Below are positions 30,517-36,392 of a stretch of 64,000 nt of DNA, in pieces. The position numbers were made by a program, and so were the translations under genes. Location of the stretch: contig NZ_QPHM01000001.1 of the NCBI RefSeq assembly GCF_003336245.1, forward strand, positions 2,112,113 through 2,176,112. Direction: 5' to 3'. Source of the stretch: Haloplanus salinus (GTDB lineage: Archaea; Halobacteriota; Halobacteria; Halobacteriales; Haloferacaceae). Under the pieces are notes generated by a model. It saw only the letters and a program-made list of their open reading frames with translations. It ran no database searches and was not told the DNA's origin. Position 1 is the first letter of the stretch, and every line of letters begins with the position of its first letter.

Positions 30517-30879
30517 ACTGTCGTGTCCGCGCGCACGACGTAAAATGGTACTCGATTCCGCCACGACCGACGACACTAAAGTATCATTCAGCTAACTAGT
30601 ATCGCCTCACCGACAAATATCAACGAGACAACTATTGTGCTCGGACTAGTTACAGTATCTGTCAATCGTCTAATCTTACTCCCGTCAATCGGTTTCGACG
30701 TTCGCTCTGCGGACGTCTGACACACACACGACAGTACCACAAAACATATACCAAACTTGCCTAAAGACATGCCCGTACCCCTACCAGTGGTCGCGCTATC
30801 CGTTACGGACGGCAAGATCACGAATCGGCACGAAAGAGGAGCGACCTCCGGACTGTCACTGCAGATAAGACAACAAAAA
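30517..30879 (+). promoter_or_regulatory. Long AT-rich upstream region of the S-layer gene
   Basis: These 363 bases lie between the lipoprotein and S-layer genes and contain no gene I support. They are AT-richer than the surroundings. ACTAGT occurs at 30595-30600 and 30645-30650. A TATA-like AAAACATATA lies at about 30741-30750, predicting a leader of roughly 110 bases. A long regulated leader is common for abundant S-layer mRNAs. A GGAG-like stretch near 30836 is too far from the ATG to act as a normal ribosome site. Confidence 0.45.
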
Positions 30880-33800
30880 ATGACAGACTATAACGAAAAA
30901 GTTCGCGCGGTCATCCTCGCGGCGCTCATGGTATTCAGCGTCTTCGCTGGTACTGTGGCGCTGTCGGGGACGGCTGTAGCAGACCCCTCGGGCGCATCGA
31001 ACGCTTCCGTTGCAGCTGGGACTGTTACGCCTACGACCGTCATTAACGGCTCCGAACCGACACACAGCGTAGAGATTCAGATCGATAACGTGGACGCCGA
31101 CGGTGTTGACGATGCAGTTAACATTTCGTCGACTGTTGGGACAGTCACCGGCGTCTCCAACGTCGCAGCGACTAACGAGACGTCGGGATCCAGTTCGATC
31201 TCCGACGTCCGTGTTCGCTCCTCGTCTAACGGCCAGTTGGTCGTTAATGCTTCTGGTGGAAGCAGTCCTCAGGAGATTCAGGTGAACATCACGGCTGATG
31301 TCACTGTCGACTACAGTGGTGCGACCCCGGCCTCGGGCGACACCGGCAACATCCAAGTCGAAGTCGACGAAGATGACGACGGTGCCAGCGTGGCTGGCCC
31401 GACTAGCATCGGCAACACGATTACCGTCGCCACGTCTCCGTCGGGGAACCGAGCAGGTAACCCGGACGGTACGGGCACCTTCGACACCGTCGACGGTGAG
31501 GGTGCATTCTTCCCTGGCGCGACTATCTTCCAGGGTGAATCCGGCATCCAGCTCGGCGACTCCTTCGCCGACACGCCGACCAAAACGGCCGGTAATGCTG
31601 AGGGCGTCCCGCTCGAAACTCCTGACATCCCGCAGAATCAGGAAACCGGTCGATATCAAGACTCGAACGGCAACTCGGTCACTGTCACGACCCCGCGTGT
31701 CACCACGCTGGACGTGATCAACACGAACGGTGAGGACATCGCCGGCGGCTCCGTCGCCGAAGGTATCTCCGGTGAGAGCGGTGCCGGTAACCTCTCCGTT
31801 GTCGGTTCTTGGAACTACGAGAATGCTGAGCGTCTGGAAGTCACCGTTGAGGACGACTCCGGTCTTGATGTGACCGGCGACGTCATCAACAACGGTGCTG
31901 TCCGCACCGCTGGTGACAAGACGAGCCAGACGCAGACCAACAACGGCTTCAGCCTCAGCAACAACGAGGTCTACTACAACCTCAACCTTGCGGACACGGG
32001 TACGGGAACGTACACGATCACTCTCGCCGGCACGGACGACCTCGACTTCGGTGAGGCGTCCCAGTCGACGACCGTCACCGTCACCGGTGACGACGACGCG
32101 AACCTCGAACTCGACTCGGACGACGTCACGCGCGGTGAGGACGTCCGCTTCGAGATTCAGGGCTCCGACGCTGGCGACACGCACACGGTCCTGATCGAGT
32201 CCGACGACTTCCGTGACGGCTTCACGGTCGACAACGCCCAGCGCGTCTTCCGTCTGGTCGGCGACACTGACGAAGTTGGTGTCGTCGAGAACGCGAGCGC
32301 TCTCAGCGGCGACGTCTACGAGCGCGGTACCTCGGGCTCGAGTCCCACTAACGTCGACTACGCGTTCGCGAACATCACCATCGACGACGACACCGGTGTC
32401 GGCGTCGGGCAGATCGAAACGCAGTACCTCGACGACTCGGACGTGGACGTCTACCTGTACGATCAGAACTTCGGCGTTCCGTTCGACACTGACAACTCGA
32501 CGGCCACGGACAACGAGGCCGACGACCAGACCCTGACCGTCGAGCAGGGTGACATCTCCATCGAATCGCCCGGCAGCACGTACGTTGTCGGCAGCGAAGT
32601 GGACGTCAACGGGACGGCCTCCGAAGGTATCGACGAGGTCGCCTTCTACGTCCGCCGCCAGAACGACTACCAGCTCCTCGACATCGACGATAGCCCCACG
32701 CTGACCGTCGACGCTGACGGCACGTTCGACGAGGACGACGTCGTCCTCTCGCAGGGCAACGAGCCCGGGAACAACGAACTGTCCCAGCCCGGCACCTACC
32801 GTCTCGGTGTCGTCGACGCTGATGGTCTCGGCACGAACACGCCGCCCGCGACGATCAGCACGTCGAACTTCAACACGAACACGAGTACGCAGCAGTCGCT
32901 GCGCGTGCTCGACACTGAACTCGACGCGAACTACCAGACCGTCGGTGGTCAGGTGGCCGTCGAGGACAACGAACTCAACATCACCGGCAGCGCATTCGGT
33001 GCGCAGCAGGTGACGGTCGTCTTCGTCGGTGAGCGTGGGAACACGGCGTTCCACACGATCAGCGTCGACGACGACAACACGTTCGAAGAGGACGACCTCA
33101 CGGTCTCCGAGAGTGGCCAATTCAACGGCGACGCGAGCGGTCTCTCGGAAGGCGAGGTCAGCGCGCACGTCCTGATCCCTGGTCGTGACGACCAGTTCGG
33201 TGACGACAGCTTCGACGGCGCGAACAGCTTCGAAGCGTTCGTCGAGGACCTGGACAACGACAACTCGGGACTGACCGGTCAGCAGGTCCGTTCGCGCATC
33301 GTCGATCAGACGACCGAGGAAGTCGCGTCCGACGACCGGATGGTCACCTCGCGCTTCCGCTACGCGGACGCGCAGACGACCATCGACACGGTCTACCCCG
33401 AAGGCTCTGAGGCCTCTGGCGTCAACCCGGTCGGCGTGGACGACACGCTGGTCGCGGAAGGCGGCACGAACCTCCGGCCGGACGACAACTCGATCACCGT
33501 GGAACTCCTGACGGAGGACGGTGACTCGGTCGCACTGACGACGACCGAGGAATGGTCCTTCGACGGGACGTACAACGTGTCGCTCGAACTCGAGGACGTG
33601 CAGACGGGCACGTACACCCTCGAAGCCGACGACTCGTTCAACACGGACATCGTGTCGGTCGAAATCGTCCAGAGCGTCCAGACGGCAACGCCGGAACCGA
33701 CGGCGACGCCGGAGCCGACTCCGACGGAGACGCCGGAGCCGACGCCGGAGCCGACGCCGGAACCGACGGAAACGATGGAACCGACGGACACGGCAACGGC

Positions 33801-33903
33801 CACGCCGACGCCCACTGAGGGTGGCGGTCCTGGCTTCGGTGCCATCATCGCCGTCATCGCGCTCATCGCGGCCGCACTGCTGGCCGTCCGGCGCGACAAC
33901 TAA
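30880..33903 (+). CDS. csg: S-layer glycoprotein with PGF-CTERM anchor
   Basis: The 1007-residue surface protein has an N-terminal Sec signal (residues 1-35, ending SGTAVADP) and a long acidic Asn/Thr/Ser-rich ectodomain with many N-x-S/T sites. A Thr/Pro/Glu-repeat stalk (about 930-980, ETPEPTPEPTPEPT) follows, then GGGPGFGAIIAVIALIAAALLAVRRDN (in parts). The PGF motif plus helix plus basic tail is the archaeosortase A signal, which is removed and replaced by a lipid anchor. The family builds the cell wall lattice. The first about 450 bases are less GC-rich than the rest. The ATG at 30880 follows an A-run and starts the signal peptide. Confidence 0.93.
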   Translation: MTDYNEKVRAVILAALMVFSVFAGTVALSGTAVADPSGASNASVAAGTVTPTTVINGSEPTHSVEIQIDNVDADGVDDAVNISSTVGTVTGVSNVAATNETSGSSSISDVRVRSSSNGQLVVNASGGSSPQEIQVNITADVTVDYSGATPASGDTGNIQVEVDEDDDGASVAGPTSIGNTITVATSPSGNRAGNPDGTGTFDTVDGEGAFFPGATIFQGESGIQLGDSFADTPTKTAGNAEGVPLETPDIPQNQETGRYQDSNGNSVTVTTPRVTTLDVINTNGEDIAGGSVAEGISGESGAGNLSVVGSWNYENAERLEVTVEDDSGLDVTGDVINNGAVRTAGDKTSQTQTNNGFSLSNNEVYYNLNLADTGTGTYTITLAGTDDLDFGEASQSTTVTVTGDDDANLELDSDDVTRGEDVRFEIQGSDAGDTHTVLIESDDFRDGFTVDNAQRVFRLVGDTDEVGVVENASALSGDVYERGTSGSSPTNVDYAFANITIDDDTGVGVGQIETQYLDDSDVDVYLYDQNFGVPFDTDNSTATDNEADDQTLTVEQGDISIESPGSTYVVGSEVDVNGTASEGIDEVAFYVRRQNDYQLLDIDDSPTLTVDADGTFDEDDVVLSQGNEPGNNELSQPGTYRLGVVDADGLGTNTPPATISTSNFNTNTSTQQSLRVLDTELDANYQTVGGQVAVEDNELNITGSAFGAQQVTVVFVGERGNTAFHTISVDDDNTFEEDDLTVSESGQFNGDASGLSEGEVSAHVLIPGRDDQFGDDSFDGANSFEAFVEDLDNDNSGLTGQQVRSRIVDQTTEEVASDDRMVTSRFRYADAQTTIDTVYPEGSEASGVNPVGVDDTLVAEGGTNLRPDDNSITVELLTEDGDSVALTTTEEWSFDGTYNVSLELEDVQTGTYTLEADDSFNTDIVSVEIVQSVQTATPEPTATPEPTPTETPEPTPEPTPEPTETMEPTDTATATPTPTEGGGPGFGAIIAVIALIAAALLAVRRDN

Positions 33904-34268
33904 GCGACCGGTCGTGAGCCACGGTTGAGTCGCCTCGCGCGACTCGGTCGACGGTGACGATCGGGCGACCACGAACCACGACTGACCGCCGAAAGCGGTC
34001 ATCCGATGCGGATTCTTTTATCGGCGCAGATCCGGTAGCGACGGCGCTCGCTGGGCGCCGACTCCGTTGCTCCGCAACCACTAAACACGCTTCGCGCCTT
34101 CGCCCGACAATGGTCGACTGGACGGAGGAGTTCACCAAATCGTGTGTATCTCGTGTGTACCGGTGACGCCGCTCGCTTCCCGAGAGGTGATGCAAGTCGA
34201 AGTCTCTGTGATGGGTAGACTGGCATATTTTGGGAACTGTTTTGTCTGTACCCACCGTACGATACGAT
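33904..34268 (+). other. Gene-free stretch with terminator-like hairpin and rfcL duplicate
   Basis: No gene is supported in these 365 bases. GAGTCGC (33927-33933) and GCGACTC (33939-33945) form a 7-base hairpin just after the S-layer stop and may be a terminator, although no T-run follows. At 34069-34135 the DNA matches the rfcL promoter and start (described separately). GCATATTTTGG at 34223-34233 may be the VapB promoter. Confidence 0.5.
34069..34135 (+). pseudogene. Duplicate of rfcL promoter and first codons
   Basis: About 67 bases match the segment at 34876-34940. They include the promoter-like CCACTAAAC, the GCTTCGCGC stretch and an ATG at 34110 that reads MVDWTEEFT before diverging (the intact rfcL reads MTDWTEKYR). 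The frame then ends after 18 codons at 34166. The duplicate lies immediately upstream of the VapBC-like pair, so the pair sits between two copies of the rfcL 5' end. Confidence 0.85.
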
Positions 34269-34499
34269 ATGTCCGACGCGACGCTCGACGACCGGGGCCG
34301 TCTGACACTCCCGAAGGAGATACGGGAGCGATACGGCGACCGCTACCACGTCGTCGACATCCACGACGGAATCAAGTTGATTCCGGTCGCCGGGGACCCT
34401 CTCGACGCGCTTCGGGACGAGTTCGCTGACGTCGAGAAGTCGGCGGAAGAACTGCGCGAAGGGGCACGCGAAACGGCGCTGGACGAGGCCGGGCGCTGA
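34269..34499 (+). CDS. vapB: AbrB/MazE-type antitoxin (VapB-like)
   Basis: A 76-residue protein. Residues 1-45 form an AbrB/SpoVT swapped-hairpin DNA-binding domain (LDDRGRLTLPKEIRERYG, then YHVVDIHDGIKLIPV). The C-terminal tail (about 46-76, FADVEKSAEELREGARETA) is a helix that should wrap the toxin. It stands at the start of a two-gene cassette with the toxin directly after (no intergenic base). Such antitoxins both neutralise the toxin and repress their own promoter. Confidence 0.85.
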   Translation: MSDATLDDRGRLTLPKEIRERYGDRYHVVDIHDGIKLIPVAGDPLDALRDEFADVEKSAEELREGARETALDEAGR

Positions 34500-34874
34500 A
34501 TGTACGTCGAGACGGACTTCCTACTCGCGCTCATCAAGGACGAAGACTGGCTCGGTGCTGCCGCCGAGACGGTGTACCGTGACCATCGAGACGGACTGTG
34601 GACGTCACAGTTCACGCTCATCGAACTGCTCTTAGTCGCCGACCGTGAGGACCGGGATACAGAGCGAGTCGTAACGAACGCCGCAAAACTCGTCGAGGTC
34701 CATGGCGACGTGGATACGGTCGTCGCGGCAGCAACCTACGTCGAAGACCACAACTTCACCCCCTTCGACGCACTCCACCTCGTCGAGTCGGACGGCGACC
34801 GGATAGTCTCCAGTGACGACGCATACGAGGGATACGCACCTCGCATCGATCTGAAGGATGTAGCCGAGGAGTGA
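34500..34874 (+). CDS. vapC: PIN-domain toxin (VapC-like ribonuclease)
   Basis: The 124-residue PIN protein starts at the base after the antitoxin stop. Acidic active-site residues are visible: Asp6 in YVETDFLLALIKDEDW, Glu in FTLIELLL near 43, Asp in FTPFDALHL near 92, and Asp in SSDDAYE near 109. VapC toxins are Mg2+-dependent endoribonucleases cutting tRNA or rRNA. Its stop lies one base before the second copy of the rfcL promoter duplicate. All catalytic acids appear intact. Confidence 0.88.
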   Translation: MYVETDFLLALIKDEDWLGAAAETVYRDHRDGLWTSQFTLIELLLVADREDRDTERVVTNAAKLVEVHGDVDTVVAAATYVEDHNFTPFDALHLVESDGDRIVSSDDAYEGYAPRIDLKDVAEE

Positions 34875-34884
34875 CGCTCCGCAA

Positions 34885-34894
34885 CCACTAAACG
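34885..34894 (+). promoter_or_regulatory. TATA element of rfcL
   Basis: CCACTAAACG is centred about 27 bases before the rfcL ATG at 34917, and the same element is preserved in the duplicate at 34078-34086. Confidence 0.45.
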
Positions 34895-34916
34895 CGCTTC
34901 GCGCTTTCGTCCGGTA

Positions 34917-36392
34917 ATGACCGATTGGACGGAGAAGTACCGCCCGTCGACGCTGTCGGCGGTCCGGGGGAACGACAAGGCCCGTGACGCGCTGGCGGAG
35001 TGGGCGAAGACGTGGGACGATCACCGCGAGGCGGTCGTCGTCTACGGGAGTCCGGGCGTCGGCAAGACGTCGGCGGCCCACGCGCTGGCGGCCGATATGG
35101 GATGGGAGACGGTCGAACTCAACGCCTCCGACCAGCGGACGGCCGACGTGATCGAACGGTTCGCGGGGCGAGCGGCGCAGAACGCGACGCTCGTCGGATC
35201 GGCCGGCGGCGACGACGGCGGCCGACAGCTCGTGATTCTCGACGAGGCCGACAACATCCACGGTAACTACGACCGCGGCGGGGCGAGCGCGGTCACGCGT
35301 GTGGTCAAAGACGCCGACCAGCCCATCGTCCTGATCGCCAACGACTACTACGACATGAGCCGTGGCCTGCGCAACGCCTGCCGTGACATCGAGTTCCGTG
35401 ACGTGTCGGCACGCTCCATCGTGCCCGTTCTCCGGGACATTTGCCGGCGCGAGGACGTCGAGTTCGAGGCCGACGCCTTGGACCGCATCGCCGAAATCGA
35501 CGACGGCGACCTGCGTTCGGCGGTGAACGACCTGCAGGCGGCCGCGGAGGGAGACCGCCGCCTGACGGTCGACGACGTCGTGACGGGCGACCGCGACCGG
35601 AGTCTCGGGGTCTTTCCCTTCCTCGATGCGGTGTTGAAAGAGGAGACCCCGGAGGCGGCCATCGGGTCCGCGTACCGCGTCGACGAGACGCCGGACGACC
35701 TGACGAAATGGGTCGCGGAGAACGTCACGAAGGTGTACGACGGGGCGGAACTCGCGCGGGCGTACGACCACCTCGCGAACGCCGACCGGTGGCTGGGACG
35801 GGTGCGCGCCAGCCAGGAGTACGGCTACTGGCGGTACGCGACCGACGCCCTCGCCGGCGGCGTCGCGGCGTCCCGTGACGGCTCGAAGGGGGGCTGGACG
35901 CGCTTCTCACGGCCGCAGTTCTGGCCCTCGTCGGACTCGACGGCCGACGAGGTGGTCCGCAAGGTGGCCGAGAACGGCGGGTTCAGCATGGCGACCGCTC
36001 GCCGCGAAGTCCTCCCGTTCCTCGCGGCGATGACCCATCACTGCAAGCCCCGTGAACTGACCGTCTCGATGGCCGCCTACTACGACCTCGACGAGGCGGC
36101 GGTGTCTTTCGTCACCGGGAGCGGCGAGACGACGAACAAGGTGGAGTCAATCGTCGCGGACGCACGGGAACTCCGGGAGTCCGCGATGGAGGAACACTCG
36201 GGGGCGTTCGGCGGCGAGCGAGCGACCGTCGACGAGGCGGCGGCGCCCGACGACGAAGCGTCGGACGGCGACGCACACGGGGCGAATGCTGCCGAGACCG
36301 AGGCGGGCGCGGGCGACGTCGGGAGCGAGGCCGACACCGACACCGACGCCGACGCCGACGACGGCCAGTCCGGCCTCTCGGATTTCATGTGA
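34917..36392 (+). CDS. rfcL: Replication factor C large subunit
   Basis: RfcL (491 residues) is part of the clamp loader that opens PCNA. TDWTEKYRPSTLSAVRGND begins the protein; Walker A is VYGSPGVGKTSAAHALA, Walker B VILDEADNIHGNYDRGG, followed by sensor 1 LIANDYYDMS and the arginine region LRNACRDIEFR. The collar domain follows from about 235 to 400. The C-terminus is an acidic tail rich in Asp/Ala ending in QSGLSDFM, where the final QSGLSDFM resembles a PIP box for PCNA binding. The first residues and promoter are duplicated upstream. Confidence 0.96.
   Translation: MTDWTEKYRPSTLSAVRGNDKARDALAEWAKTWDDHREAVVVYGSPGVGKTSAAHALAADMGWETVELNASDQRTADVIERFAGRAAQNATLVGSAGGDDGGRQLVILDEADNIHGNYDRGGASAVTRVVKDADQPIVLIANDYYDMSRGLRNACRDIEFRDVSARSIVPVLRDICRREDVEFEADALDRIAEIDDGDLRSAVNDLQAAAEGDRRLTVDDVVTGDRDRSLGVFPFLDAVLKEETPEAAIGSAYRVDETPDDLTKWVAENVTKVYDGAELARAYDHLANADRWLGRVRASQEYGYWRYATDALAGGVAASRDGSKGGWTRFSRPQFWPSSDSTADEVVRKVAENGGFSMATARREVLPFLAAMTHHCKPRELTVSMAAYYDLDEAAVSFVTGSGETTNKVESIVADARELRESAMEEHSGAFGGERATVDEAAAPDDEASDGDAHGANAAETEAGAGDVGSEADTDTDADADDGQSGLSDFM

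Follow-up and report, generated by a model that had tools for sequence, protein, structure and literature searches.

The gene for the large subunit of replication factor C, rfcL, is preceded in Haloplanus salinus by a second, broken copy of its own promoter and first codons, and a toxin-antitoxin pair lies between the two. We examined this locus in a stretch of 64,000 nucleotides of the genome (hereafter the window; the genome is G000). How a small cassette could enter the start of an essential clamp-loader gene, keep that gene working and leave a piece of the old 5' end behind is the question that the locus raises.

The duplicated rfcL start and its cassette

The repeat is direct and imperfect. 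Its two copies, at 34069-34131 and 34876-34938 of the forward strand, are identical at 54 of 63 positions (86%) with a spacing of 807, and a search within the locus reports the match with a BLAST E-value of ~3e-17. Each copy comprises the rfcL promoter and 22 coding bases. The 18-base promoter block GCTCCGCAACCACTAAAC, covering 34069-34086 in the left copy, occurs exactly twice in the 64 kb, for a chance expectation of 0.02 even with three mismatches allowed. The left ATG, at 34110, opens the reading MVDWTEEFTKSCVSRVYR, which is followed by a stop. The right copy contains the promoter block, a variable promoter segment, an ATG at 34917 and the first 22 coding nucleotides of the working gene, and leads into an intact RfcL of 491 residues (34917-36392, forward strand; NCBIfam NF003228). 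Both copies, the left one dead and the right one functional, had been recognized in a preliminary description of the window, which placed their ends slightly further on, at 34135 and 34940. The left copy is best described as the putative old 5' end of rfcL, forming an attL-like junction, and it harbors a candidate recombination core (GACTGGACGGAGGAGT, 34116-34131, forward strand), the same that borders rfcL islands in five other genomes and at which near-identical units break.

The cassette consists of two genes only, within a unit of 807 bp in the window (~800 bases), and the two genes that the preliminary description called a complete AbrB antitoxin and PIN toxin are both present, on the forward strand. 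The first gene (34269-34499) encodes an AbrB/MazE-like protein of 76 residues, whose matches to TIGR01439 (E=4e-5) and PF04014 (E=0.001) do not reach the curated cut-offs; the antitoxin-then-toxin order fits VapBC. The second (34500-34874, 124 residues) is assigned a PIN domain above the cut-off (PF01850, E=6.4e-7), as in type II VapBC systems, and is predicted to be a VapC-like toxin; no solved structure was found for it by sequence search. Its stop lies 1 base before the promoter block, a distance that is nearly constant in most other loci. Upstream of the antitoxin, the likely promoter/operator region of the cassette (34212-34254, forward strand) contains an inverted repeat TGGGTA...TACCCA and is kept in copies of the pair away from rfcL. 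Closer to the core, starting 11 nt past it, an arm-type repeat TGTGTA-tctcg-TGTGTA (34143-34159, forward strand) has a period of 11 nt, a geometry also found at the left ends of the islands and in other cassettes. The same toxin-antitoxin pair is found outside rfcL (L038-L046, L126-L145), with one clade concentrated in Haloferax, and these copies have a conserved operator-like inverted repeat GTGGGTA...TACCCAC. Cassettes sited elsewhere in genomes are devoid of direct repeats resembling the rfcL bracket, and the bracketing is therefore specific to rfcL. Just upstream of the locus, the window encodes a large secreted protein with a PGF-CTERM sorting motif (30856-33903), resembling S-layer glycoproteins; a PGF-CTERM protein precedes rfcL in several genomes of the genus (G001, G002, G007, G009).

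Coding constraint at the rfcL start can be rejected as the source of the repeat. The left copy is recognized at 29 cassette loci and is absent from all 24 intact rfcL loci examined that have neither cassette nor island, one of which returned a weak 35-nt match without the promoter (L016); the repeat is thus tied to the insertion. The preliminary description would have been overturned by a left copy without any cassette or by similarity due to coding constraint alone, and neither was found at the loci examined.

Recurrence, transfer and boundaries of the unit

The preliminary description proposed to look for the same junctions elsewhere. A whole-locus query identified essentially complete cassettes directly next to the rfcL promoter block in 66 of the 392 genomes of the order (counted manually from the match table), spread over seven families and including Halorubrum, Natrinema, Natrialba, Halopiger, Halorussus marinus and Halobonum tyrrellensis. 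The position at rfcL is constant: as a rule, the cassette lies 1 base ahead of the promoter block. Where the left copy is recognized, its homology to rfcL normally stops at nucleotide 22 of the gene (less clearly so in L106 and a few decayed copies), and its identity to the right copy of the same locus ranges from 67% to 97%. At several loci, decayed older cassettes lie to the left of the old 5' copy (L079, L096, L105, L106, L111, L112, L116, L117), so the insertions were successive, the newest adjoining rfcL. As to the age of the window's insertion, G002, the genome nearest by RfcL (91%), displays a PIN gene relic directly upstream of rfcL (L002, 2900-3500), with the same left flank as in the window and no left copy. 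Since this relic occupies the same place, the insertion in the window probably predates the split from G002.

The tree of the antitoxin and PIN proteins is out of step with host taxonomy. Of the two cassettes from the genus of the window, that of G004 clusters with Halorubrum G333 (support 99/84) and apart from that of G000. Copies located at rfcL are mixed with those from other sites (8 changes, of which at least 2 are forced), many forks of the tree being weak. Furthermore, units that are 98-99% identical occur in four genomes of two genera (G191 and G271; G230 and G308), between which the rfcL genes are only 84-88% identical.

These near-identical units delineate what was inserted. On the left, identity falls to background at about nucleotides 3-9 of the left copy; on the right, the best-resolved pairs diverge at nucleotide 18 of the right copy, and in other pairs this boundary is no narrower, the first ~60 bases of rfcL being conserved. 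The resolved breakpoints fall inside the core, in a small number of informative pairs. Alignment with cassette-free relatives, also proposed in the preliminary description, revealed the empty site: the left flank and left copy of G191, joined to rfcL, align over 650 bp at 85-86% identity with G410 and G407, two cassette-free genomes of the same genus, Natrinema. The rfcL insertions are bounded by a repeated core, with a known empty attB. The promoter segment of the G191 left copy is that of the G410 and G407 empty sites, and that of its right copy is common to the near-identical units of G271, G230 and G308; because of these matches, we equate the G191 left copy with the old gene start and regard the right copy as insert-borne. 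By sequence, the right copy appears to be unit-borne in all four of these genomes, the insert supplying promoter and N-terminus. The rfcL upstream region of G410 matches with equal score on two contigs (L251; C4:143034-143366 and C1:1687815-1688147), either a duplicated region or an assembly artefact.

By analogy, the left copy of the window would be the old start and, by comparison with the other genomes, the right copy would be unit-borne and a fresh attB-like site. The claim that the insertion kept rfcL working and left its old 5' end behind thus has sequence support in G191 and extends to the window by analogy. The preliminary description had further taken the differences between the window copies to favor a diverged donor; for this genome, that proposal is weak. 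Across 62 bases, a length too short to assign the lineage of the right copy, the right copy is nearest to G002 (57/62) and G009 (56), the left copy is nearest to G011 (54), and both are within the range of their own genus.

A single ancient duplication at rfcL, passed on by vertical descent and lost repeatedly, would account for a position and junction that hardly vary among the families. However, the 67% to 97% span of repeat identities, the conflict between the cassette tree and taxonomy, and the empty site with its host-type left copy do not agree with such a history, and the 98-99% identical units in two genera contradict it, leaving it with hardly any credibility.

Integrase islands at the same site

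Much larger insertions are found at the same position. Islands with a tyrosine integrase occupy the rfcL start in nine genomes (G006, G142, G339, G158, G136, G202, G093, G189, G123). Five of them are complete (13-35 kb), with both ends seen and the same core (GACTGGACSGAG...) repeated as border: G339 (L153-L155), G006 (L156-L157), G142 (L158-L159), G158 (L243) and G136 (L244). The rfcL start is cut off from its native promoter by 35 kb in G339, 24.5 kb in G006 and 29 kb in G142, with the core ATG..GACTGGAC.GAG at both island ends; G158 and G136 contain two further complete elements of about 13-14 kb. The islands give rfcL an upstream sequence and start codon of their own. In G339, G006 and G142, the gene adjoining rfcL encodes a tyrosine integrase identified by Pfam (the generic Phage_integrase, PF00589), and a small, weakly characterized ribbon-helix-helix-like protein is encoded beside the island integrase. 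When the G006 integrase is used as query against 195 genomes, the six best matches (45-52% identity) and one match at 40% all adjoin an rfcL start. Other island proteins exhibit resolvase, HNH, peptidase and exonuclease-like domains, the cargo is largely uncharacterized, and no diagnostic viral gene was found among the island proteins. No relatives of the rfcL integrase were found in the collections of viral contigs, phages and plasmids searched. Judged from these sequences, the rfcL 5' end is an attachment site for integrative elements. Pattern scans for the bare core mostly returned chance matches.

The left ends of islands and cassettes resemble each other. The former exhibit a hexamer repeated with an 11-base period and starting about 11 bases past the core, each hexamer being present twice (TCATGA in G158, TACACA in G006, GATGTA in G142). 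Cassettes likewise display hexamers in two copies, GATGTA in many Natrialbaceae and TGTGTA in the window. When all 400 combinations of offset and period were scored, offset 10 with period 11 ranked first in islands (5.40 of 7; mean 1.85, sd 0.60) and, scored separately, also in 15 non-redundant cassettes (4.20; mean 1.86, sd 0.53). Within 16 non-redundant Natrialbaceae cassettes, the arm region is 75-77% identical as compared with 32-50% in the next 30 bases; since it is more conserved than its surroundings, it appears to be constrained.

This resemblance might indicate that the cassette is a decayed remnant of a large rfcL element, of which everything but the left end and the toxin-antitoxin pair was deleted, and islands do occur alongside cassettes or cassette relics in G339, G142 and G158. 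The right ends differ, however: those of the islands comprise an arm repeat and a non-native promoter, while in cassettes the promoter is of the native type and its distance from the PIN gene hardly varies. Near-identical cassettes also recur as cassettes in different genera, and we regard this origin as quite improbable. Shortly inside the left end of the G339 island, a possible PIN fragment (GDVDTIAETANTHHYV; L153, 13157-13230) is perhaps another cassette relic.

The core also bears on the two models of the preliminary description. The first, a site-specific insertion that brings its own replacement 5' end, gains support from the G191 promoter segments, from the empty sites and from unit boundaries that coincide with the island core. 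The second, homologous exchange on one side and illegitimate joining on the other, is disfavored by a left boundary conserved across families and by a shared tract that does not continue further into rfcL. A related possibility is that homologous recombination alone moves the unit, the rfcL 5' sequence at both ends serving as homology arms and the left junction being a copied founder accident, after the manner of the minimal mobile elements of Neisseria or of insertions with long target duplication. Every haloarchaeal rfcL start does share homology with the ~63-bp repeats, and promoter segments have been exchanged or homogenized at some loci (L092, L101). Yet the promoter block offers homology at least as long as the core, and the resolved exchanges are in the core or inseparable from it; the core and arm geometry is that of the integrase islands, and the arm region is conserved. 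We therefore hold this route to be unlikely as the sole explanation.

A probable passenger of rfcL integrases and its known counterparts

Site-specific insertion is the reading that we retain. It is likely that the rfcL start is the attB of haloarchaeal integrative elements, with the VapBC-like unit as a minimal passenger that probably uses their integrase. The unit encodes no recombinase, its two genes lacking the integrase that the rfcL islands carry elsewhere, and it would thus probably depend on an enzyme supplied in trans by rfcL-targeting elements. With slightly more confidence than doubt, we propose that it is a recombinase-less satellite composed solely of an integrase arm site, a toxin-antitoxin pair and a substitute for the rfcL promoter and start. 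This satellite would be mobilized in trans, would re-create attB whenever it inserts and would have spread through haloarchaea on repeated occasions. The tyrosine integrases of the rfcL elements would recombine within GACTGGACSGAG, at about codons 3-6, and the inserted elements would hand rfcL a new promoter, start codon and first codons. The left end of the unit would consist of the core and the arm-type repeat, and its right end of a complete rfcL promoter, the ATG and the core. As a putative circle, the unit would recombine with attB, leaving the old 5' end of the resident stranded on the left and rfcL driven from the incoming promoter. Its right junction would again be an attB, so that later units or large elements could insert between the unit and rfcL, and the toxin-antitoxin pair may stabilize the unit against loss between the direct repeats.

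Several features count against the satellite: a recognizable left copy is missing at about half of the cassette loci, the right end of the cassette is devoid of an arm repeat, and at L092, L091 and L117 a single promoter segment is common to the left and right copies, a pattern that calls for either a close donor or gene conversion. A possible second route, homologous recombination via the repeats, would explain shared or exchanged promoter segments (L092, L101). In G000, no integrase of the rfcL type was found at E<=1e-40, and hence nothing shows that the unit is mobile there now.

A literature search, with most subscription papers outside its scope, turned up neither rfcL as an integration target nor any toxin-antitoxin pair pared down to a unit of this kind. 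The locus points to the start of an essential clamp-loader gene as the likely attachment site for an archaeal integrase family, and provides a simple, datable example of a toxin-antitoxin pair that would be mobile in its own right. The unit contains an essential-gene promoter and its toxin may punish loss, which makes it testable whether such pairs persist as selfish passengers. The att core and the integrases could also serve as integration tools in haloarchaea.

Among known systems, the Neisseria minimal mobile elements are small cassettes that replace one another at a fixed chromosomal position through homologous recombination in the genes on either side. The rfcL cassette is also small and exchanged at a fixed place; in contrast, its resolved breakpoints, from few informative pairs, are in a short core and not in flanking genes. 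Helicobacter restriction-modification genes can be inserted with a long target duplication and, like the cassette, form an addiction-type pair that has no mobility gene and is flanked by a long direct repeat of target sequence. In such an insertion both copies derive from the target, whereas the second copy of the cassette appears to be unit-borne in the resolved case, G191, and the junction is an integrase-type core; L091, L092 and L117 would fit a target duplication. Integron gene cassettes, known also from archaeal integrons and some with toxin-antitoxin genes, are small, integrase-less and serially added at a fixed site by a tyrosine recombinase, as the rfcL unit may be (PMC9668308). The rfcL unit is distinguished from them by a site that is a gene start and by the whole promoter and start codon that each unit carries; neither IntI nor an attC-type site was noticed. 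Lastly, bacterial islands in the dusA 5' end (IMEVchUSA3) and SXT in prfC insert into, and restore, the 5' end of a housekeeping gene (PMC8409611). The rfcL insertions are similarly site-specific within the 5' coding end of such a gene. The dusA islands and SXT carry an integrase and span tens of kb or more, whereas the rfcL cassette is ~0.8 kb long, contains only a toxin-antitoxin pair and has an archaeal target; it is the rfcL islands that are the direct archaeal counterpart of the dusA and SXT elements.
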